Origin: Candidatus Caldarchaeum subterraneum
Lineage (GTDB): Archaea; Thermoproteota; Nitrososphaeria_A; Caldarchaeales; Caldarchaeaceae
Length of the DNA: 39,553 nt
Reading direction: 5' to 3'
Assembly: GCA_000270325.1 (NCBI GenBank)
Contig: BA000048.1
Location: 927,471-967,023, forward strand
Shown here: piece by piece, positions 22,910-35,087 of the stretch
Layout of the letters: each line of letters starts with the position of its first letter
Position numbering within the stretch: the first letter of the stretch is position 1
The notes under the pieces: generated by a model
What the model was told of the DNA's origin: nothing
Database searches by the model: none
Seen by the model: the letters and a program-made list of their open reading frames with translations, nothing else
Translations under genes and position numbers: made by a program

Positions 22910-23028
22910 CGTGTTTGAAAGATTTGCATATGATAAATATCTTTGTCGTCAAATGTTTGAGAGAGAATAAATGTGTCGGGTGGTGTTCAAAGGTTATATG
23001 CGGGACAGTGTCGGGTGATGTCGCGGGG

Positions 23029-24348
23029 ATGCCTGAGTTTCTTGATTTGTTTGTTTCCCAGGTGTTGGATAAGCGTGAGAGGCTTGTGTCGATTCTTTCT
23101 TTTGGCCGGAGGAGTGTTTTTGAGGAAGAGTTCCGCAGCTTATTGAGAAGTAGCTGGAATCCGTTGCCCGCTGCTGGGCCGTGTTTTTCCAAGGTTGTCG
23201 GCATCGATGGAAGCAGGGCTCTGCGTCTTTACGTGGTTGGCGGTGTGTTGTATGTGGTTAGAGCAGTTGGCGTATACGGTAAACACAGAATACGGGAGTT
23301 GGAGGTTGATGCTTTCACATCCGCGTCAAGTAGCAGAGATATCAACAGGTTTGTTAACAGGAAGATGGAGTGGCTCGAACATCGTGCCGCTTTACATGCT
23401 CTCGAAAAGTTTGACGACGTGGAATGTGTTCTGATTGACGGGACTCTGCACGGCAGGATGATGGCTGTGCCACGGGACAGCGCCGCAGAGGGTCAGAAAG
23501 ATTTCATGCTCCAATATTTTCAAGACTACACGGCTTTTCTCGAAGAATGCAGGCGAAGGAATGTTGTGCCGATTGGCGTCAGCAAAGACAGCAGGTCAAC
23601 TCATTTCAAAACCTACTTTCTATCACTAATTCTTGAAAACTATTTCGACGTATCAAAAACCGGTTCACAGCAACTGGAGAAACTGTTGAGTATGTTGTTT
23701 GAAATGGCTGATGAAGAGGTTAAAAAACAGTTTACTACTAATTCTGTTGTTTTGGCGAATGTGTTTCGTGAAGCTACTTCATCTGTCACAGACCATCAAA
23801 TAATCAGAAACTACGCCGAAGAAGCTGGATTCACCCAGCCGCTAGAGATAGGTGTCTATGGCAGAGGCGCGAGGCTGGTTGGACAATTTATCGAGTCCCC
23901 TATTCATTATATTCACCGAAATTTTCCGGAAGCCTTTGAAGAGGCCGGTGACAAGGCGTCTTTTCTTGAGTGGGGTCGACGCGTGCTGTCCAAGATTCTG
24001 CGTCTACCCACCATAGTTTCATTCCATATATTGCTTGACAGGAGAGACTCGCCTCTGCGAATAGATGTGCCCAGCTGGTATTTCGGGCTCGACAACACTC
24101 TGTCCGATAAAATAGGGGTCAGCCCTATGAATGTACGGCCAGATTTGCTTGAGAGAATTGTAGCGACGTTGATGCGGGGCTATGGTGGGTTGCGGAACTA
24201 TAATGTTTGGCTGGTGCAGGCTGATAAGGAGGTGAAGCTGAGCCGTGAGACCGTGGATAGCCTTTATCACCGTTCTCTGGAAAAGTTTCTCGGGCTCGGG
24301 ACGCTTTTGACTCCTGTTAGGAGGGAGAGGCGTGTCAGGTTTCCATGA
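23029..24348 (+). CDS. nurA: NurA domain nuclease (second copy)
   Basis: 439 residues from ATG 23029, chosen because GGTGAT lies 10 bases upstream and a TATA-like GGTTATATG about 30 bases upstream; a longer frame to 22915 has no domain character. Motifs: VVGIDGSRALRLYVVGG (first acidic ligand), CVLIDGTLHGRMM (second) and the terminal WLVQADKEVKLSR. It is ~120 residues longer than the first NurA of the window. It heads a nurA-herA-mre11-rad50 operon, the archaeal double-strand-break resection set, and its end overlaps the herA start by 17 bases. Confidence 0.88.
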   Translation: MPEFLDLFVSQVLDKRERLVSILSFGRRSVFEEEFRSLLRSSWNPLPAAGPCFSKVVGIDGSRALRLYVVGGVLYVVRAVGVYGKHRIRELEVDAFTSASSSRDINRFVNRKMEWLEHRAALHALEKFDDVECVLIDGTLHGRMMAVPRDSAAEGQKDFMLQYFQDYTAFLEECRRRNVVPIGVSKDSRSTHFKTYFLSLILENYFDVSKTGSQQLEKLLSMLFEMADEEVKKQFTTNSVVLANVFREATSSVTDHQIIRNYAEEAGFTQPLEIGVYGRGARLVGQFIESPIHYIHRNFPEAFEEAGDKASFLEWGRRVLSKILRLPTIVSFHILLDRRDSPLRIDVPSWYFGLDNTLSDKIGVSPMNVRPDLLERIVATLMRGYGGLRNYNVWLVQADKEVKLSRETVDSLYHRSLEKFLGLGTLLTPVRRERRVRFP

Positions 24349-25933
24349 GTCTAAGCAGGTTGGAGTGATAGTGGGTGAGGCGAGAAGCGACCAGTTCTTC
24401 TTCGTCTGACGGCCGGAGGATTATCCGGCGCGTTGGGAGTATCTCATGGTTTATTCACAGGAGGAGGTTGACGGTAAGCTATGTGAGGTTCCGGTCGTTG
24501 CTCAGGTTGAGGGTGTGGTGGCGGCGAGTCAGGCGCTCAGCCCCACAGTGGATATCGAGGCGTTGAACCGTATCTTGGCTGCTGAGGTCTATGATGTCAG
24601 GACATGGGGCCGCGCGAGGGTTCTCGGCTATCTCGATAGAGAGGAGCGGGTGATGCAGCCGCGGAGAGCCGTCGCCCCCGGAAAACCAGTCTACATCGCG
24701 CCGAAAACATTGCTGGAAAAGTTCTACTCATTCCCGGAGGATGAGCGGCTTCACGTGGGTCATCTGATAACAAGGCCCGATGTTCCTGTTCATCTCTCGG
24801 TACGTGGTTTTCGGCGACATCTTGCAATAATAGCTCAGACCGGTGCGGGTAAAAGCTACTTGGCCGGGGTGTTGTTGGAGGAGCTTCTGAGCAAAGGCGC
24901 GACAATTTTGGTGCTTGACCCTCACTCCGACTATGTCCGCCTTACGATGACGCCTGATGGACGTTTGCACGAGCTCGCTGACAGGATAACGGTTTACAGA
25001 CACACGGCGGCTACGGGCAGATACCAGAAATTGTTTCACCTGAGGCGTTATGAGATTGCTTTCACCGAGCTGTATGCAGATGACATATGCGACATCGCTG
25101 GAATAAGAGAAGAAGCTACGAGGCAGAGGGCCGCTGTCAGAAAAGCACTTGAAAAACTCGCGGACACTGCTTACACACCGCAAGACTTGCTGAAAATGCT
25201 GGAAAACCCGCCATGGACCGATGAGGATAAAGAATTAGCCGATGCTGCACGCGCAGCAGCCAGATACATACGGCGTCTCGCCCATCTCAACGTATTCGGC
25301 CTCTCATCCACCGACGTGTCAGAGCTGCTTAAACCGGCTCACGCCTCGATTATAGATTTGTCAGGGCTACGCGACGACTCGATGAACTACATCGCCTACA
25401 CAATACTATCCAAAGTATACGACAGGGTCTCAAACGGGTTATTCGGCTACCCAGTCTTCATCGTAATAGAGGAGGCTCATAGATTCGTGCCATACAGAGA
25501 AGAAACGTATGCTTCGGCGATTATTAACAGGATTGCGGCGGAGGGTAGAAAATTCGGCCTGTTTCTCATACTGGTGACGCAGAGGCCCTCGAAGATAGAT
25601 GATGACAGCTTGAGCCAGTGCAACAGCCAGATAATCATGCGTCTCACTAACCCAGAGGACCAGAACGCTGTGGCGAGAAGCTCGGAGAGAATGAGCCAAG
25701 ACCTGTTAAACGATCTACCAAGCCTCAACCAGGGCGAGGCGGTGGTGGTGGGTGAGGTGACCAAGGTGCCTGTGATGATGAAGGTGAGGCCCAGAACCAC
25801 GATGGAGGGCGGCGCCGACATCGATGTTGTGTCCAAGCTAAGGGAGGCCCTCAACCTTGTGAGAAACGATAAAAGAGCAGAAGAAGATGAAAAGCGGAGA
25901 AAGCCTTTCAAAGGCGAGTTTGAGGAGACCTGA
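24332..25933 (+). CDS. herA: HerA DNA translocase (in-frame TGA at codon 26)
   Basis: The full HerA frame starts at GTG 24332 inside the end of nurA. It reads SKQVGVIVGEARSDQFFFV, then TGA (24407-24409), then RPEDYPARWEYLMVYSQEEV, all of it HAS-barrel sequence; the frame after ATG 24446 alone lacks the first strands. The ATPase part is intact: Walker A QTGAGKSY near residue 140, Walker B PVFIVIEEAHRF, an Arg-finger region RIAAEGRKFG, and the ILVTQRPSKID sensor. It pumps DNA for NurA. The TGA is either a base error (TGC or TGG), a loss mutation with restart at 24446, or readthrough; I consider an error or recent mutation most likely. Confidence 0.85.
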
Positions 25934-25934
25934 A

Positions 25935-27086
25935 ATGAGCGTGCAGGCCATCATTACAGCGGATAATCATCTCGACCCGCCTGCAACCATGTTCGGCGCC
26001 AAACGGTTTGAGAGAAAACGGGACCATCTCCGCTGCTTCGAGGAGGTTATGGAACATGCTAAGAGAGAGAAACCAGACCTTTTGCTGATGGCTGGAGACA
26101 TTTTCGACACGGTGAAGCCCAGCAACTTTGTCAGAGCACGTCTTATGCAGCACATGAAGCAGCTGCATGAAAGAGGTGTGAAGGTGGTGATGGTGAGCGG
26201 CCATCACGACACACCCAAAAGCGCCGAAGAAGGCGTCTCACCGTTGGCTGTCTACGGCCACTCGGGATACGCATACTTTATCCAGGACCCAAACAGCATG
26301 GACTATTTTTCACTTGAGGTGGATGGTTGCGAAGTTGTTGTGGCGGGCCTTGGACATAACCCGCTGCTACATCCGGCAGACGACCCATTATCCTCTGTCA
26401 AGATGGAGAAACGGGGTGACGTTAACATTCTTTTGCTACACTATCCCGTGGAAGGGTTTGTCGGCGTCTATGGCGAAGAACCGGTGATTAGGCTGAACTC
26501 TATTCCGAAAACATGTCAACTAGTGGCAGTAGGCCATCTGCATCGGCACCAAGTCAAACGTCTCGGCGACACGGCGATAGTTTACCCCGGTAGCACAGAG
26601 AGAGTCTCCTTCGCGGAGGAAGAGGAGCCAAAAGGCTTTGTCTGGGCAGAGCTAAACAGGGAAGGCCTTGTCTCACTAGACCACGTCAAGACACAGGCCC
26701 GTCCCTACAAAACCATAGAAACCATGTTCCCTGAAAAAGATGCAATAGAGCGGCTCAAGCAATTGATAGACCAACACGCCGACCCACAGCTTGTCCTACG
26801 CCTTGTCATCAAAGGAGTCGTAGAGGCGGAAAAACTAACCGAATACAGAAGATCAGAGCTTCTTCTCCACGCTCAAACCCGCCTATTCCATCTCATGGTT
26901 GACGATAATGGTCTCGAGATCAAGTCACCTGAGAAACCGAGCACACTGGAGAAAACCACTCCCTTGGAGGAGCTGCGCCGCTACTTCAGTACCTTGATGC
27001 AGACTGCTTCGGCCGAGGAGCGGGAGATTTTGGCGGAGGCGCTTAGACTCAGTGAAGGAATGCTTCAGGAGGCCGGTGCATGGTAA
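25935..27086 (+). CDS. mre11: Mre11/SbcD-like (YhaO-like) DNA repair nuclease
   Basis: 383 residues from ATG 25935, one base after the herA stop. Calcineurin-like phosphoesterase motifs: ITADNHLD (I), MAGDIFD (II), VSGHHDTP (III), LLHYPVEG (IV) and VGHLHRHQ (V). Motif III is normally GNHD; here the Asn that binds metal and phosphate is His, which could change activity. C-terminal region (residues ~260-383) is helical and should contact the Rad50-like partner. It overlaps rad50 by 7 bases. With its membrane-type Rad50 the pair resembles bacterial YhaO-YhaN as much as classical Mre11-Rad50. Confidence 0.82.
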   Translation: MSVQAIITADNHLDPPATMFGAKRFERKRDHLRCFEEVMEHAKREKPDLLLMAGDIFDTVKPSNFVRARLMQHMKQLHERGVKVVMVSGHHDTPKSAEEGVSPLAVYGHSGYAYFIQDPNSMDYFSLEVDGCEVVVAGLGHNPLLHPADDPLSSVKMEKRGDVNILLLHYPVEGFVGVYGEEPVIRLNSIPKTCQLVAVGHLHRHQVKRLGDTAIVYPGSTERVSFAEEEEPKGFVWAELNREGLVSLDHVKTQARPYKTIETMFPEKDAIERLKQLIDQHADPQLVLRLVIKGVVEAEKLTEYRRSELLLHAQTRLFHLMVDDNGLEIKSPEKPSTLEKTTPLEELRRYFSTLMQTASAEEREILAEALRLSEGMLQEAGAW

Positions 27087-29383
27087 AGCTGCTAAGCCTC
27101 TATGCCTACAACTTCAAGAAACTGAGGTTCGACGAGCCGTTAAGGTTCTCAGACGGCGTAACGCTGATATCAGGCCTCAACGAGGCCGGAAAATCCTCCA
27201 TCCTCGACGCAATACTATACGCCCTCTACGCCAGAGTGATAAGGCCGCCGCCGGAAAAAGGTAAAACAAGAAACGAGGACATTATCGCATATGGCGCCAG
27301 CAAAGCCACAGTAGTCCTCGAGTTCGCTGTCGGCGATAAACGCTACAGGGTAAGCAGGGAAATAAAACGAAGCGGAAAACCCCGTGCCAACCTCGACGAA
27401 ATCCTCGCAGACAATTCCCTCAAACCCTTAGCCGTGGGACAGGAGAAAGTAACCGAGCAGATAGAAGCCATACTCGGAGGAATAACCTTCAACGAACTAG
27501 TTTCCAGCACCGTCGTGGCGCAGAAGGAGCTGAACAAGCTGATTGAGCTTCGGAAAGAGGACCGAAAAAAGATAATCAACGTCTTCCTCAACCTAGAAAG
27601 CTTCAACATCGTTCTGGAAAATCTTGAAGAGCAGAAAAGAGAGCTGGAGGGCACTAAGGAGAGGCCGGGGCGTCTGCGGGTCGAAAAAGAAAAGCTGGAA
27701 TCCTTGCGTGAAGAGCTGGAAGAATACCTGAAAAAGAAGAAAGAACGCGAAGACCTGGTCGAGGAAAGAATGAAGTTGCTCAAAAACATCGAGAAAACAG
27801 AGGCCGAATATGCGGAGGCGGAGAAACTGTATAAGATGCTGCAGGAATACGATGAATTTCTCAATCGGCGGCAAAAGCTGGAGCTCGAGATAGAGGGAAA
27901 ACGAAAACAGCTGGAAACGCTTCGGAAACAGAGGGAAACACTGCTAAAGAACATAGAAAACACGGAGAGCGATATGCATCGTTACCGGGACCTGCATCTC
28001 GTCGAAAAAGAGCTGGAATCGTTGTCGAAAGAGTATCAGCAGCTGGTTACTCTTGAGCATCAGATTGGTGAGGCGCGTGAAGCTGAGACGCGGCTAGGCA
28101 TACAGGTTAGGAGCTTGGAGCAGCAGTTGCCGCCGTCGGCTAAAGCAACAGCGTTACGGAGACCGTCTATCCGTCCATTTGCAGCTGGAGCCGCAGCAAG
28201 CATCATCATAGCATTCATCCTCCTGTTTATCGGCAGCGTTCTCCCAGCCCTCCTGTTCCTCGCCGCTGGAGTGGTTTTTCTAATCATCGTGTTTCAACGG
28301 GTTTCGAGACTTTCTCGAATGATGGTTCTTCAGGAAACACTCGCCAGACTCGAGCAAGCCAGGGAAATGCATGCCACTGCAAGGGCCACACTCAGAAACC
28401 TTATTCAAAACCACAGCGTAAAAACCTCGTATCTGAAAAACGCCTTCTCATCCCTGCCAAGATATGGCGAGCTATTCCAGCAAAAACTCGTAGAAGGATT
28501 GCCCAAAGCTGTTGAAGCCGTGTTGCAGCAGGCGGAGAAAGACCGCCAAGAACTCAACGATCTCAAGTCGAAGCTTGACGCTTACAGGGAGCAGCTCAAA
28601 AACCTGCCAGCGGAGCATGAGCTCAACCAAGTCGAGAGCGAGATACACAGTCTCGGGGAACAGCTAGAGGGTGTAAGGTTGCCCACGCTGTCTCCGGGGC
28701 TGGAGTTTAGCAGAGATGTGCTGGAGGAGGCGAGGAAAAGGGTTCAGCAGCTCGCAGAAAACATTCAGGCTTACAGGACGAGGACGGAGTTGCTGTCGCA
28801 GCTGGTTTTGGAGCTGGAAGAGTGGCTAAGGGCCCACGGCGACGTGGAGCAGAGATACAGCGAACAGTTAGCTGTTGTCGCAAATCTGGAGCGGGAGCTG
28901 GCAGTCGTCAGGAAGGCGGTTGAAGCCATACAGGCCACAGCCGAGGCGCTGAGAAACAGGGTGAAACCACTTGTCGCAGCGCACATGGGAATCATTCTGC
29001 CGGCTCTCACAAACAACCGATACAAAGCCGCAATACTCGACGACGACTATCGGCTGCAGGTCTGGGACCCCGACGCGGGTCAGTACAGGGTCAAGGAGGT
29101 TTTCTCAGGCGGCACAGAGGACCAGATGCTCCTCGCCATGAGGCTTGCCTTCGCATTGGCTCTTCTCCCCGAAGCCAAGGGCCAGAAACCAGAGTTCGTC
29201 TTCCTCGACGAGCCGCTGGGAAGCTCCGACGAAGTAAGAAGGTCAGGCATCATCGAATACATAGCCATAGACCTCGCGAAAAAATTCAGCCAAATATTCA
29301 TCATAAGCCACGTAGGCGGCCTCGAAGAACACGTAAACCACATCATAAGACTACATGAGGGAAAAGTGGTGGAAACAGTTTAG
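27080..29383 (+). CDS. rad50: Rad50-like coiled-coil ATPase with a membrane hairpin and no zinc hook
   Basis: 767 residues. N-terminal ATPase half: Walker A GLNEAGKSSILDA; Q-loop region VVAQKELNKLI. Long coiled coil (~150-350 and ~410-640). At the apex, where Rad50 has its CxxC zinc hook, there are two hydrophobic helices instead (SIIIAFILLFIGSVLPALLF and AAGVVFLIIVF, residues ~365-408). I find no cysteine in the whole protein. C-terminal half: signature FSGGTEDQ, Walker B FVFLDEPLGSSDE and the His switch IISHVG. It would clamp DNA ends with the Mre11-like nuclease, perhaps at the membrane. Its end overlaps convergently with cas3'' by 4 bases. Confidence 0.85.
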   Translation: MVKLLSLYAYNFKKLRFDEPLRFSDGVTLISGLNEAGKSSILDAILYALYARVIRPPPEKGKTRNEDIIAYGASKATVVLEFAVGDKRYRVSREIKRSGKPRANLDEILADNSLKPLAVGQEKVTEQIEAILGGITFNELVSSTVVAQKELNKLIELRKEDRKKIINVFLNLESFNIVLENLEEQKRELEGTKERPGRLRVEKEKLESLREELEEYLKKKKEREDLVEERMKLLKNIEKTEAEYAEAEKLYKMLQEYDEFLNRRQKLELEIEGKRKQLETLRKQRETLLKNIENTESDMHRYRDLHLVEKELESLSKEYQQLVTLEHQIGEAREAETRLGIQVRSLEQQLPPSAKATALRRPSIRPFAAGAAASIIIAFILLFIGSVLPALLFLAAGVVFLIIVFQRVSRLSRMMVLQETLARLEQAREMHATARATLRNLIQNHSVKTSYLKNAFSSLPRYGELFQQKLVEGLPKAVEAVLQQAEKDRQELNDLKSKLDAYREQLKNLPAEHELNQVESEIHSLGEQLEGVRLPTLSPGLEFSRDVLEEARKRVQQLAENIQAYRTRTELLSQLVLELEEWLRAHGDVEQRYSEQLAVVANLERELAVVRKAVEAIQATAEALRNRVKPLVAAHMGIILPALTNNRYKAAILDDDYRLQVWDPDAGQYRVKEVFSGGTEDQMLLAMRLAFALALLPEAKGQKPEFVFLDEPLGSSDEVRRSGIIEYIAIDLAKKFSQIFIISHVGGLEEHVNHIIRLHEGKVVETV

Positions 29384-30099
29384 CACAGGCATCGCAACAC
29401 ATACCTTATTTGGTGAATTTCCGCCGGGTCGGGCAAATCTTTTACAAAGATTTTCTCAACTCCATCTCGCTTCTCCGCTGCGGCCAGGTTATCCACAATC
29501 AGAAGGGGACGTAAGAGCTTGAGTGTGCGGCGGTAGAATGTATGGCCTGTCTGGAGGCTCAAGAGTCTAGCTGATATGTGTTCTAGCGTCTTTCTGACCT
29601 CGGGCAGGGTTATTTCATGAGGCGGGTCATTAACAAGCATATCCCCCAACTCATTATCCTTTGCAATTTTGCGAAAGGTTTCAACAAACTCTGCCGGGAA
29701 CGTGGCTTTCTCGGGTGCGCCAAACTTTTTCCATGTCGTAAAGTCGTCTAAGAGGCTCGGGCCCTTCATAGCCATGTGATGCCATCCAATAGCCATTAAG
29801 CACTCGTCGCGCCAAACAGTTTCTTTGATAGATTTATGCGCCGCCGTGGCTGAGAAATATTCGTGTTTTGGAAAACTAAGTTTCTTGGACTCTTTCTTCT
29901 GGTATTCGTCAGCCGCCTTCCCATAGTCGTGGAAGATCACAGCCGTCTTCAACGCCTTCACAGCCTCCGCCTCATCTATTCCAAAGCAGTAGGCCACGTG
30001 GACAGCGTAGCCTCTATCGATAAAGTGGCTGTCCAAAAACCGGAGACAGGTGATAAGATGTTCTTCTAGTGTTTCATGACTAGATGCCATAAGCTTCAT
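29380..30099 (-). CDS. cas3'': Cas3'' HD nuclease
   Basis: 239-residue HD-domain nuclease that is separate from the helicase, as in subtype I-A. Metal-binding motifs: early His EEHLITCL, the HD pair VIFHDYGKA, KHEYFSA and IGWHHMAM. It degrades the strand exposed by Cascade. It is the last gene of the minus-strand interference operon and overlaps cas3' by 20 bases. The start is ATG 30099 or ATG 30090. Confidence 0.85.
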   Translation of the reverse strand: MKLMASSHETLEEHLITCLRFLDSHFIDRGYAVHVAYCFGIDEAEAVKALKTAVIFHDYGKAADEYQKKESKKLSFPKHEYFSATAAHKSIKETVWRDECLMAIGWHHMAMKGPSLLDDFTTWKKFGAPEKATFPAEFVETFRKIAKDNELGDMLVNDPPHEITLPEVRKTLEHISARLLSLQTGHTFYRRTLKLLRPLLIVDNLAAAEKRDGVEKIFVKDLPDPAEIHQIRYVLRCLC

Positions 30100-31693
30100 T
30101 TCTATATTCCTCCTCCGAAATCAAAAAACCAACTATGTCCTTACAGAGCATGAATAGTGAGGGGGACGGGGATCTGTTTACATCTTTGGCTCTGAGACTT
30201 TTATCTTCAGTAAGGCCTTCTTTTTTCTGAATGATGGCTGTTGCTTGAGGAAACTTGTATGCAAGTTGTTGGAGGTCTGTTGTGAAAGAGTTATCTTTTT
30301 CTAATTTATCTATGTCGTCTGCTACGTAAACGGTTGTCACAGTGTCCCTGATAAGGTTTTGGGCTTGATGTGGTGTGGATACGGGGTTAATCATCTGGTT
30401 TAGAAGAGTGTTGTTGGTGAGAAAGACTTGGTCGCCATGCACCATGTCAACAAGCTGGCTGTAGCCTATTCCTCTTTCCGGTGATGGAACACGCCAGCTC
30501 ACGCCGCCGTCATTCAAAGCATTTCTCAAAACTTCGTATGTTTTCTCCACCGTTTCTCCGCTGTAGGGAGCCGGTTCAGCCTTCACCACCACAATCATAC
30601 CCTCCTGCTCGTTGTCATATCGAGCAACCCTTCCCGCACGCTGCACAAGCGAACTAGCTGGAGCAAGCTCTGTTATCATCAACTCGGAGGAAATGTTAAC
30701 GCCCGCTTCCACAACCTGAGTCGAAACCACTACCCATTTTTTCCCGTTTTTGAGATTGTCCAAAACATTTTGACGGTCTTTCTTAGTGAGGCGTCCGTGG
30801 AGAAGTACTGCATCAGCATCGGAGAGAAGCCTGTAAAGGTGTTTAGCTTTTTCCACGGTGTTGGCCATTATGAGAACCCTGTCCCACACGGCGTCGCGCA
30901 GCCTATTCCTCACAACATCCTCCAGCGAACCTTCCTCAAGATAGGTTTCGATTTTTTTGCTTTTCATAGTGTTTTCAAAGTCTTTGTCGAACATGTTTTC
31001 ACCGTAGATCATCTCACGGTATTCCACCCCGAATGCGCTGGCTGCTTCCCTCGCCAAGTTCCTCAGACTTTTTGACACGGTGGCGCTCATCAGGGTCATG
31101 AAACCTCCGTGACAGGCTAGCGCATAGAGAATAGAAGGTAACGTGCTGTCGTTTTCGTCAATCATTAGCTGCGGCTCGTCGAGAAACACTGCGGATTCGA
31201 AGATTGCGCCGCGGCTTATCTCGAAGTGGCCGTATGTCCGCCAGCCACTGTTTAGCAGTGCGCTGCAAAACATGTTTTTGATTTCATGTGGCGGCGTCTT
31301 CATCATATGGAACTTGAAGGTTTCATATGTTACGAAGACGATGTCCTTGTTGAGGAATGGTGACCCGGGCGCTCCCATCATCTGCTCCGCAACGATTTCC
31401 TCAGGGTTCGTGATTCCTATTCTTTGAAGGTTTTTAACCGTTGATTTGTAGGCGTCGTCTATTATGCTTCGGAGAGGCAGGACGTGAATAGACCTAAGAT
31501 ATTCCCGTGGTTCGACGATGGATTTTAACCCGCATGCGATAGAGAGGGATGTTTTGCCGTAGCCAGTGGGTAGCTGTACCACGTTAACCCCCGGCCCCAG
31601 GTTCTCCAACACATGTTCAATCAATGGCCTTTTTGCAGAATAGAAGCCTCTCTCCACCAGCGTTCTGTATATTTTCGACTCAGGACAATGCAT
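30080..31693 (-). CDS. cas3': Cas3' helicase
   Basis: 537-residue superfamily 2 helicase with ordered motifs: Walker A QLPTGYGKTSLS (I), AVFLDEPQLM (II, DExH variant DEPQ), LMSATVS (III), VVSTQVVEAGVNI (V) and VQRAGRVARYD (VI). No HD domain is attached; the nuclease is the next gene. It unwinds target DNA after Cascade recognition. It overlaps the cas8a2 end by 14 bases. All motifs are intact. Confidence 0.9.
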   Translation of the reverse strand: MHCPESKIYRTLVERGFYSAKRPLIEHVLENLGPGVNVVQLPTGYGKTSLSIACGLKSIVEPREYLRSIHVLPLRSIIDDAYKSTVKNLQRIGITNPEEIVAEQMMGAPGSPFLNKDIVFVTYETFKFHMMKTPPHEIKNMFCSALLNSGWRTYGHFEISRGAIFESAVFLDEPQLMIDENDSTLPSILYALACHGGFMTLMSATVSKSLRNLAREAASAFGVEYREMIYGENMFDKDFENTMKSKKIETYLEEGSLEDVVRNRLRDAVWDRVLIMANTVEKAKHLYRLLSDADAVLLHGRLTKKDRQNVLDNLKNGKKWVVVSTQVVEAGVNISSELMITELAPASSLVQRAGRVARYDNEQEGMIVVVKAEPAPYSGETVEKTYEVLRNALNDGGVSWRVPSPERGIGYSQLVDMVHGDQVFLTNNTLLNQMINPVSTPHQAQNLIRDTVTTVYVADDIDKLEKDNSFTTDLQQLAYKFPQATAIIQKKEGLTEDKSLRAKDVNRSPSPSLFMLCKDIVGFLISEEEYRNEAYGI

Positions 31694-32859
31694 CGTAAAT
31701 ATCCCGCAGCACCTCAGTCCTTCTGAAGGGACTGTTCTCGGGGCTACTTCTCGCCAGCAGGTAGATAGTTTCGTCTGCGGGCTTCACTTTAGCAGCGGCC
31801 GCGTAAAGAGCTCTACTCAGCCGGTCACAGAGAGATGCGTCCCCAAACCTGTTTGAACAATAGTTGCTGTGCCTCCGTGCTTGCGTAATCGTACACTTGA
31901 GAAAGTCTTTGAGATAGTCTCTTGAGTTCTGCAGTTTTTCCACGAAAGGTGCTAGGAAGGAGAAGTCGATTGATAATCTCTCGAGGAGGGAAAAGCTCTG
32001 GCCTGTGTACATTATGCGGTAGAAAACATAGGGAGGTGCCTCTCTGATTGATAGATGTGGCGGCTTTATGCTTGCCAGCTCGAGGGCTAGCAAAAGAGAA
32101 TATGCGTGGGGGAGTTCGGGAGTTGCTTGGACCTTGTAGGGCAGCATCATCAGCGCCTGAAAAGCCGTGTAGTTGCCCAAAGATTGTGTGAGCTGCTGCA
32201 CATAGTTCACCCAGCTATAATCTAGGGTTGCTTTTTCGATGACTTTCTCGGGTATGGTTGAAAGTATTATCTCGCCGTCGGCGAAACCGGAATAGCAGAC
32301 ACCGAATCCCGCCAGCACGAGCGCCACCCATCTCTCATCCATCTGGATGTCCAGCTGTGCACGAAAATCACCGAACCGTTTTCCGTATTTGTATTTCTCA
32401 ATTTTGAGAGGCTGAAAACCGGAAAAAAGCTGACTTGGGCTCGCCTAAGGTGATGGTTTTTGGGGAGTAGCTGATTTTGTCCAGGCTCTCGAGCCATTTG
32501 TCGGGGTTTTTCTGAAGGTCTTTGATAGCCCATGAACAAAGAGCGTCAACATACTCTCTGTATGTGTCGTTGATCTTGAGGTTAAGCTTCCTCATTATTT
32601 TAGCCATGACCTGCCTATCATTAAAGTGAGGCTTTATCGGGGGTAACTCATTCTTATTCGCTAGCAATTGTTGCGCGTTCTGAAAAACCTGGGCCAGCGA
32701 GCCTATGGCTCCAGCTCCAGAGACCACCGCCTCGTCCTCGTAAATATCAAGTGTTGTTCCCCCCTGAGAGGGTGTGAAAGCCAGCGGAGAAAGCGCAGAC
32801 AACACCAATTCACGGGCCAGTGTGCCGTGTGGAAGAAGCTTGATGTTGATTTTCACCAT
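31680..32859 (-). CDS. cas8a2: Cas8a2/Csa4 large subunit (split by a one-base frameshift)
   Basis: Position between cas5 and cas3' and combined size (~392 residues) fit Cas8a2, the PAM-recognising large subunit of I-A Cascade. The first frame (32859-32398, MVKINIKLLPHGTLAREL) breaks in the A6 run at 32423-32428 (TTTTTT on the coding strand). Removing one T continues the protein as FSGFQPLKIEKYKYGKRFGD and DFRAQLDIQMDERWV into the second frame (32342-31680). Total length minus one base is divisible by three. Subunit identity rests mostly on context, because this family is poorly conserved. If the shift is real, interference is disabled. Confidence 0.7.
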
Positions 32860-33611
32860 GGTACAAGCTCCTCGTCGCCGACTCTGTAAACTATTCCATC
32901 CCTAAGGTCTACATGCAGCGGCGAAACCTTCTTTCTCTCATCATCGTAGGGAACAATCAGATTTACCGTGGGTTTACCGAGGTATTCGCCGATAGATGTG
33001 TTTCTCCAGTCGACCACATTTGCGACCAAGAAGCTTCCTTTCACCGATGACTGCATGTAAGAAGGGAAATAATACACTGTTTGTGCAGTTTTCTGATTTA
33101 ACACAGCAACGTCACCAATCGACACTTTGTCCACGGAGACTATGCTCTCCCTCGCCCCAAGCCTCGTAATCGACCACGCTGCCTCGAGCAACATCTCTTC
33201 CCAGCCTACATCGAAAAACTTTCGGACATCCTGCTCCTCAAACAAGTAAACAATTTTTACACTGTCATCTGCAGAGCTGACCCCACGGTAGATCTTGCTC
33301 ACGGCCGCCGCATCAGTCCTTATCTGCTTCTCGTCAACGTCGTATGAAAAAATTTTGCTCAAGTCGTTGTACTCGATTAATGGAAGATTTTGAGATAGGT
33401 ATATTCCTTTGAACAGTGTTCGGATTTTTTCGGCTGAGCTGTTGGATTCACTGTTCTCAGCCCAGTGGTTTTTTAGTGCGATTGGCTGTGCTAGTGCGCC
33501 GATGAGGGTTGTTGGGGGTATTGTTTTGAGGGCGGGGCGGCTTTTTGTGAAGGCATGGTAGTTGAGGTAGAGACCCCAGTGTAGCGTTGCCTCGACCTTA
33601 AGATATTTCAT
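32853..33611 (-). CDS. cas5a: Cas5a Cascade subunit
   Basis: 252 residues with a RAMP-type start: LKVEATLHWGLYLNYHAFTK and SRPALKTIPPTTLIGALAQP, the usual Cas5 pattern of a first strand followed by the TLIGAL helix. It caps the 5' handle of the crRNA. It overlaps cas7 by 4 bases upstream and cas8a2 by 7 bases downstream. No catalytic role is expected because Cas6 is present. Confidence 0.85.
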   Translation of the reverse strand: MKYLKVEATLHWGLYLNYHAFTKSRPALKTIPPTTLIGALAQPIALKNHWAENSESNSSAEKIRTLFKGIYLSQNLPLIEYNDLSKIFSYDVDEKQIRTDAAAVSKIYRGVSSADDSVKIVYLFEEQDVRKFFDVGWEEMLLEAAWSITRLGARESIVSVDKVSIGDVAVLNQKTAQTVYYFPSYMQSSVKGSFLVANVVDWRNTSIGEYLGKPTVNLIVPYDDERKKVSPLHVDLRDGIVYRVGDEELVPW

Positions 33612-34690
33612 GTTCTACCCGTGAGGATTTCATCGAGAACGAGGGTGAACAATTGCTCGACCGAGTCTGCTTTCACAACCCCGTCGGGGAGCTGCTTCTC
33701 TTTGCTGTAGGCAAAGATTTTCGTCTCCTCTGTCTTGCCGAACTTCCGCAGCATCTCCTTCATAGAATCTGCTCGTTTAACAGTGTTCTCGACAAAGTCG
33801 GGGAACTGAGGCGGGCTGATGACGAACGGCCTCTGACGTGAAACAACGGCCCCGAGGCTCAGCACATCCTCTATCGGGAGGAAACGGCTTCTCTTGGCCC
33901 CGAAGCTGTGGCCTGTGAAGAGCCGCGCCGCCGCCAGTAGAGCAATCTTCATCCTATCCAGACGGTCTGTGACGGCGTCCTCAACCTTGACCATGCTTGT
34001 CCGCCCAATAGAGTCGAGGTTGATGTTGAAGGTGAAGCCGTAGACGGCGGAGGCGAGCTCGACATAGTAGATGGCCTGTCCCTGCCGCTCTTTCACAGTT
34101 TTCGCTTGATTCTTCTCTTCACCCCCTTCCTGCGACTCCTCCTGCTTCACCGTCTCGCTGGCAACATACCTGACGTGAAACTGGCTTTCCATAGCCGTCG
34201 AGTCAAGAGCATCGAACACTGGCACAGCGTATCCAATCTGGAAACAAGAGGTCCGTTTAACGGGCACCCCTTCAGCTACCAAGAACCCTCCTATGTCGGC
34301 GACGATGCTCAATTTGATCGCTGTCTTCTCAACCTGGTGCTTCTGGTCCACCGTCTCATCCTCTTTTTTGCCGCTCTTTGGTTTGATGATTGAGGACAGC
34401 TCCGAGGGCATGTGTTTGAGGTCGCCGAATTTTATGAACTCACCTCTCTTCGACCATTCGTCGAGAGGCGCTTTTTCGCCGTAAAAGTTGATGGCCTCTT
34501 CAACTATTGCTTGTTGGTAGGCGTGTCCAAGGCTTTCGCCGCTTATTGCCGGCACATACAGCAGCTTGAACCCATCTGTCGTTGGGATAACTATGGGTGC
34601 TTTCCTGTGTTTGGATAGGTTGCCGATGCTCTCAACCATGTTGAGTGCTTCGACGTTGCATAAAAACCGAACGCCCATGGAGAGAAACAT
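33608..34690 (-). CDS. cas7a: Cas7a/Csa2 Cascade backbone subunit
   Basis: 360 residues from ATG 34690 (GAGGTGA 6 bases upstream; GTG 34702 is an alternative). The N-terminus MFLSMGVRFLCNVEALNMVE and the later SKHRKAPIVIPTTDGFKLLY and VPAISGESLGHAYQ are typical Csa2/DevR. GHSFGAKRSRFLP and the C-terminal RPFVISPPQFPDF are also typical. A middle stretch (EESQEGGEEKNQAKTVKERQ) is charged and probably a flexible loop. It multimerises along the crRNA. It follows csa5 by one base. Confidence 0.9.
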   Translation of the reverse strand: MFLSMGVRFLCNVEALNMVESIGNLSKHRKAPIVIPTTDGFKLLYVPAISGESLGHAYQQAIVEEAINFYGEKAPLDEWSKRGEFIKFGDLKHMPSELSSIIKPKSGKKEDETVDQKHQVEKTAIKLSIVADIGGFLVAEGVPVKRTSCFQIGYAVPVFDALDSTAMESQFHVRYVASETVKQEESQEGGEEKNQAKTVKERQGQAIYYVELASAVYGFTFNINLDSIGRTSMVKVEDAVTDRLDRMKIALLAAARLFTGHSFGAKRSRFLPIEDVLSLGAVVSRQRPFVISPPQFPDFVENTVKRADSMKEMLRKFGKTEETKIFAYSKEKQLPDGVVKADSVEQLFTLVLDEILTGRT

Positions 34691-34691
34691 C

Positions 34692-35087
34692 TCATTCCTC
34701 ACCTCTCTTCTCGGGGAAAGCGAGGGCTAGGGCTGCTAGAACCTTGGCTGCGCTAAGGTCCTTCTTCATTAGCTCTACGACTTTTATCACATGTGTTTCA
34801 GAGGGTATGTGAACTTTTTCACCGGCGTCTGCGGCGCTTCGAGCCTCCCTCAACGCCTCCATGACAGCCACTTCAGCGATTCTGTGGTTGAAGGCGTTAG
34901 CCAACCTATCCACGTATCCATACTTGCTTTCGATGACGAAGTACCGGAAGGTCCGGGCCACATCCATCAGCGAACTCCACTCCTCTTCCGAGAAACGGGA
35001 TTCCCTTGCCAAAACCCCTGTTTGCACGTATGGATGTGTTATGGGAGGAAAATAAGCTTTTCTATCTTTTGAGAAATTTTCACCCAT
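34692..35087 (-). CDS. csa5: Csa5 (Cas11a) small subunit
   Basis: 131 residues from ATG 35087 (MGENFSKDRKAYFPPITHPY). The ORF extends further upstream, but that part covers the divergent promoter and csa3. Helical C-terminus AIEVAVMEALREARS-like (residues 70-85) and KVVELMKKDLSAAKVLAALA. Csa5 is the small subunit of subtype I-A Cascade and stabilises the R-loop. Assignment rests on operon position, size and helical character. It is the first gene of the minus-strand interference operon. Confidence 0.75.
   Translation of the reverse strand: MGENFSKDRKAYFPPITHPYVQTGVLARESRFSEEEWSSLMDVARTFRYFVIESKYGYVDRLANAFNHRIAEVAVMEALREARSAADAGEKVHIPSETHVIKVVELMKKDLSAAKVLAALALAFPEKRGEE

Follow-up and report, generated by a model that had tools for sequence, protein, structure and literature searches.

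The closest described system to the protein examined here is archaeal Rad50 (profiles PRK03918 and Rad50_Sulf), which is encoded in the nurA-herA-mre11-rad50 operon. The two are alike in head motifs and fold, in their long arms, and in having Mre11, HerA and NurA as partners. They differ in that our protein lacks CXXC, carries a hydrophobic hairpin at its apex and falls in a separate clade. Other families share parts of this layout. YhaN (COG4717), which occurs with YhaO in Firmicutes, is an SbcC-like ATPase with a hydrophobic pair in mid-protein and a phosphoesterase as its partner. LmuB of the Lamassu systems is an SbcC-type SMC ATPase.

The stretch analyzed, hereafter the window, is 39,553 nucleotides of Candidatus Caldarchaeum subterraneum (Caldiarchaeum below), the genome of which is one contig of 1,680,938 bp. 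Positions 22915-29383 of the window hold a nurA-herA-mre11-rad50 cassette, four genes in one direction on the forward strand, with the hairpin rad50 as the fourth. This rad50-like gene (27080..29383) begins with ATG and encodes a protein of 767 residues, P0001, with no cysteine. Its Walker A (GLNEAGKSS, residues 32-40, codons 27173..27199) is invariant across 35 relatives, and the codons of residues 675-718 (29102..29233, same strand) hold the signature FSGGTEDQ (675-682), Walker B FVFLDEP (706-712) and the D-loop GSSD. With the Q-loop (Q148) and the H-loop (H744), these head motifs are essentially invariant in the relatives, confirming the initial annotation's view that Walker A, signature and Walker B are intact. 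The top profile is NCBIfam Rad50 (PRK03918; 5e-36, 124 bits), with Pfam AAA_23 also matched (9e-18, 66 bits). The best sequence matches in the PDB are solved Rad50 heads, and in a Foldseek search with the AF2 model of P0001 the heads group with Rad50 and the best PDB hits are again Rad50. Judged by its motifs and profiles, the reading frame is an intact Rad50-type ATPase. The possibility, raised earlier, that it would cluster with unrelated SMC-like proteins falls away, since the heads can be aligned with those of Rad50 and the partner protein is a genuine Mre11.

That partner is encoded by a 399-aa reading frame (25887..27086, forward) with intact phosphoesterase motifs and a match to NCBIfam Mre11 at 1e-27; its true start may be an ATG near 25935, and it overlaps rad50 by 7 bases. 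Upstream on the same strand lie herA, a helicase gene of 495 aa (24446..25933; PF01935, 1.5e-40; NCBIfam HerA, 2e-69), and nurA, a nuclease gene called as 477 aa from a TTG (22915..24348; PF09376, 2e-15), the true start of which is probably an ATG near 23029. The operon with HerA and NurA that had been described is therefore present, and it includes Mre11 as well. NurA counts from a genome search with PF09376 were not used, because that search missed the window's NurA.

The initial annotation had likened the protein to YhaN, and this assignment is not supported: P0001 is no clear YhaN member. P0001 itself matches AAA_27 (PF13514) weakly, at 21.3 bits where the cut-off is 22, compared with 124 bits for the Rad50 model. 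AAA_27 is borderline for the clade, matched at 1e-3 or better by 31 of 35 members, some with higher scores than P0001, but AAA_23 is matched by all 35, and it and the Rad50 profiles score far higher. The clade's SGGT(x)DQ and DEPLGSSD differ from the SGGE and DEPTxxLD of ordinary Rad50, and a signature of this kind, together with the mid-protein hydrophobic pair of YhaN, could be taken to indicate an archaeal ATPase of the YhaN/COG4717 type instead of a Rad50 variant. Given partners that comprise a motif-complete Mre11 with HerA and NurA rather than a lone YhaO, we find that reading quite improbable. The hairpin type differs from YhaN in its best profiles, which are Rad50 and AAA_23, and in its operon, which contains HerA and NurA.

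The unusual part of P0001 is its apex. Zinc-hook dimerization is impossible for a protein without cysteine, as had been argued earlier, and CXXC is likewise found in none of the 35 complete relatives. In place of the hook, residues 364-405 (codons 28169..28294, forward) form a hydrophobic hairpin, modeled by AF2 as a helix (365-383), a turn (384-386) and a second helix from 387. Within the block 366-405 there is no D, E, K, R, H, N or Q, and the two 19-residue segments with the highest Kyte-Doolittle means score 2.51 (367-385) and 2.98 (387-405). None of 2000 shuffled versions of the protein reaches this maximum of 2.98 (mean maximum 1.76, highest 2.96), and the pair of hydrophobic apex helices reported earlier is thus well supported. 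The block is centered at 0.50 of the protein's length, the position of the zinc hook. AF2 models of P0001 and of a Thermofilaceae protein (from G139; pLDDT about 83) both have a helix-turn-helix at the apex, where the pLDDT of the P0001 model is only 64-77.

We sought relatives in genomes of the class and phylum, with one additional scan of GTDB contigs, and found about 45 loci related to the hairpin Rad50 cassette. Most are from Bathyarchaeota, others from Thermofilaceae, Brockarchaeota and Caldarchaeales, and further relatives come from the Asgard groups Hermod-, Thor-, Njord- and Baldrarchaeota and from one MAG labelled Tenericutes. Identity to P0001 falls to 21-29%, with the apex hydrophobic throughout. 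Mre11 is encoded directly upstream of the hairpin rad50 at each locus where that side is sequenced, and its phosphoesterase motifs are present in all 25 of 25 partners. The nurA-herA pair is present too, except in soil Bathyarchaeota, where only mre11-rad50 is seen; the four-gene order of the window recurs at Thermofilaceae, Brockarchaeia and Asgard loci. Close hairpin relatives are absent from the viral contigs, in which Rad50-like matches are partial or, where complete, carry CXXC and no hairpin, and from plasmids, where the matches are hook-type or head-only. One such plasmid, of 898 kb from Pontibacillus (NZ_CP062975.1; L142:1869-8478), carries a bacterial nurA-herA-like-mre11-rad50 set with a CPIC hook. 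The part of the literature that we covered on Rad50 without a hook or with a membrane link, on the Rad50 of Thermofilum and on YhaN/YhaO describes no such protein, which does not by itself prove novelty.

These relatives permit a comparison of the apex with that of ordinary Rad50, with the membrane prediction based on hydropathy scales and AF2. Among the 35 complete members of the hairpin clade, every one has the hydrophobic block at 0.49-0.51 of its length and a favorable Wimley-White octanol sum for its best 19-mer (median -10.2), while a second, non-overlapping 19-mer is favorable in 27 and marginal in the other 8. In a hook set of 24 sequences, by contrast, the median for the best mid-protein 19-mer is +7.3, no second 19-mer is favorable, and the first is favorable in only two: L195 (-9.9), which is hookless and hairpin-like, and L186 (-1.2), a weak case beside a CPVC hook. 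Over 142 pairs, hairpin identity (38%) is close to that of the two arms (35% and 34%), yet 93% of substitutions in the hairpin exchange one nonpolar residue for another, compared with 32% for the arms. Charged or amide residues make up 4% of the hairpin and 50% of the arms. Lysine and arginine outnumber aspartate and glutamate on both flanks (3.6 versus 1.9 per 15 residues on one side, 3.1 versus 1.3 on the other), and the turn between the helices is uncharged across the clade. The possibility that both apex helices would be rejected is countered by these features of the homologues. The clade has segments hydrophobic enough, and the positive-inside flanks, for a predicted integral membrane protein, and its charges fit a membrane-type hairpin that keeps both of its ends on the cytoplasmic side. 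A membrane location of the hairpin Rad50 is thus strongly suggested by sequence, as a prediction. Because the second segment is marginal in 8 of 35 members, the hairpin may be shallow or re-entrant. So far as the operon was examined, it holds no conserved gene for a membrane partner.

Could the apex instead be a soluble, metal-free four-helix bundle built from two Rad50 protomers, serving only dimerization and never touching the membrane? The basic role of the hook is dimerization, for which an SMC hinge can substitute (PMC6969161), the turn and helices are short, and the marginal second segments would suit such a bundle. However, about 40 residues are nearly without polar side chains, octanol insertion is clearly favorable for every member, and positive residues lie on both flanks. 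A segment that varies as the arms do and nonetheless stays nonpolar is better explained by lipid contact than by a packed interface. We regard the soluble bundle as unlikely.

We consider it probable that the locus encodes an Mre11-Rad50 complex in which an integral-membrane helical hairpin has taken the place of the zinc hook. The most likely arrangement is a membrane-tethered Mre11-Rad50-HerA-NurA machine for processing DNA ends, and the membrane-anchored resection machine put forward in the initial annotation is the best reading, with the membrane location predicted. In this model, coiled-coil arms of about 170 residues, or about 25 nm, would link the DNA-binding ATPase heads in the cytoplasm to the apex. 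The two apex helices would enter the cytoplasmic membrane from inside, keeping their flanks in the cytoplasm, with the short turn between them, which is uncharged, lying within the bilayer or on its far side. The hairpins of two Rad50 protomers would probably sit next to each other in the bilayer and thereby join the arms as the hook does. In yeast, the Rad50 hook can be exchanged for another dimerization module, an SMC hinge (PMC6969161). DNA ends would be captured and opened by the heads working with Mre11, and their resection would fall to the HerA and NurA of this operon, as it does in ordinary archaeal systems, though here presumably at the membrane.

The phylogeny bears on how this complex is inherited. 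In a tree of the heads alone, with the apex columns left out, a single branch separates hairpin from hook sequences (support 100/97), and the tree of Mre11 has the identical split (100/98), with 100% bootstrap in each, indicating that Mre11 and Rad50 have been inherited as a unit. The HerA and NurA trees have no such split, and hook-type loci such as L190, L207, L208 and L212 carry HerA and NurA of the hairpin group. Since HerA-NurA is common to both kinds of cassette, the hairpin complex may be argued to act in the same resection pathway.

Ordinary-clade Rad50s of the same phylum have a CXXC near their midpoint in 41 of 44 cases. The exceptions are L047, the second Rad50 of the Caldiarchaeum genome, L187 from HRbin02, and L195. 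The first two (L047:2488-4764 and L187:5062-7341) have neither hook nor hairpin. The third (L195:6449-8875, genome G019) comes from a genome of the window's taxonomic order, and its heads fall firmly in the hook clade, beside relatives bearing CPLC. Its apex reads RARYGGLMYASISGSFLAATILYLAFQNPLPALLPIIIEVPVYLHLRRRRKS, which is hydrophobic, flanked by Arg/Lys and free of CXXC, with a Glu in the second hydrophobic segment. An AU test rejects a grouping of L195 with the hairpin clade (p-AU 2e-5). It appears from these sequences that L195 gained its hydrophobic apex independently of the hairpin clade, and with L195 excluded from that clade, replacement of the hook by a hydrophobic apex seems to have occurred at least twice.

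In Thermofilaceae, the hairpin cassette is not an addition to an ordinary one. The closed genomes G106, G139, G174 and G184 each encode one Mre11, that of the hairpin cassette, and the other hook-bearing Rad50-like protein of G106, G139 and G184 has no mre11, herA or nurA beside its gene. With the single Mre11 paired with hairpin Rad50 in all four, the hairpin complex replaces the zinc-hook one there. A second, hook-bearing rad50 with its own herA-nurA, which the initial annotation had thought might always accompany the hairpin type, is thus not a constant companion. Elsewhere, G199 carries both types of Rad50, and G287 and G350 only the ordinary one. Thermofilaceae loci L173-L181 encode Rad50-like proteins of ~800 aa with CXXC (mostly CPVC), lacking an SGG signature and adjacent mre11, herA or nurA.

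The Ted DNA-import loci of Thermoproteales combine rad50 and a herA-like helicase with neighboring genes for membrane DNA-transfer proteins (PMC9905601). For the hairpin cassettes this is a parallel only: no Ted gene was seen beside them, the flank annotated being the gene upstream of nurA in Thermofilaceae, which encodes a peroxiredoxin. A link with Ted loci is conceivable in that family. The peroxiredoxin gene lies directly upstream of nurA at L086:3130-3798 and L087:3682-4347, and in three more Thermofilaceae a reading frame of peroxiredoxin length (221-222 aa) is found upstream of nurA.

The situation in Caldiarchaeum is different. At a distance of about 40 kb, its genome carries another complete nurA-herA-mre11-rad50 cassette (L047:2488-8250), the Rad50 of which has 758 aa with neither CXXC nor a hydrophobic apex. 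An extra nurA and a weakly HerA-like neighbor, with no mre11-rad50, lie at the window's left end (2-1419). In a sister species (G003, L045), the flanks of which are 88% identical, a 5.8 kb deletion corresponding to window 23465-29230 has taken out most of the cassette, and what is left is a piece of nurA and the final rad50 codons next to intact cas genes. The coexisting soluble cassette and this loss indicate that the hairpin cassette is dispensable in Caldiarchaeum. A contig of another family (HRbin02, L044) is 93% identical over 4.65 kb (window 25688-30478) and then unrelated, reflecting either a recent transfer or a misbinned contig. Type I-A CRISPR genes for Cas3 HD, Cas3 helicase, Cas5a and Cas7a (window 29380-34702) converge with the cassette.

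This setting invites the view of a mobile anti-invader module that guards the membrane against phage or plasmid DNA, comparable to Lamassu or other SMC-based defense, and travels with CRISPR in Caldiarchaeum. The adjoining cas genes, the 93% DNA identity with a contig of another family that gives way to divergence, the clean loss in the sister species and the PADLOC LmuB match (2e-32), which runs along the whole of P0001, would all be in keeping with it. Ordinary Rad50s of the same phylum, however, match LmuB equally well, so that we rejected this match as unspecific. The partners are Mre11, HerA and NurA, not a Lamassu effector or LmuC, and a scan of ten window proteins (22915-34702) gave no match to LmuA or LmuC. 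With no close relative on viral contigs, and with the cassette providing the sole Mre11-Rad50 of the genome in Thermofilaceae, we hold a defensive role of this kind to be very doubtful. We prefer the end-processing machine described above, the cassette of which is core machinery in Thermofilaceae and accessory, perhaps mobile, in Caldiarchaeum.

Taken further, membrane-anchored complexes may be the sole Mre11-Rad50 machinery in Thermofilaceae and in some Bathyarchaeia, with breaks, or imported DNA, processed at the membrane and the hook replaced by a membrane segment at least twice; we see this wider proposal as evenly balanced between true and false. The apex considered to define Rad50 is the zinc hook, and here a whole archaeal clade, with hairpin members extending into the Asgard archaea, has dropped it for an apparent membrane anchor. 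The clade offers a natural experiment on the hook's purpose, whether that is only to join two arms or to position the complex as well. If the membrane anchor is true, the cell membrane would be the site where breaks are repaired or incoming DNA is handled.
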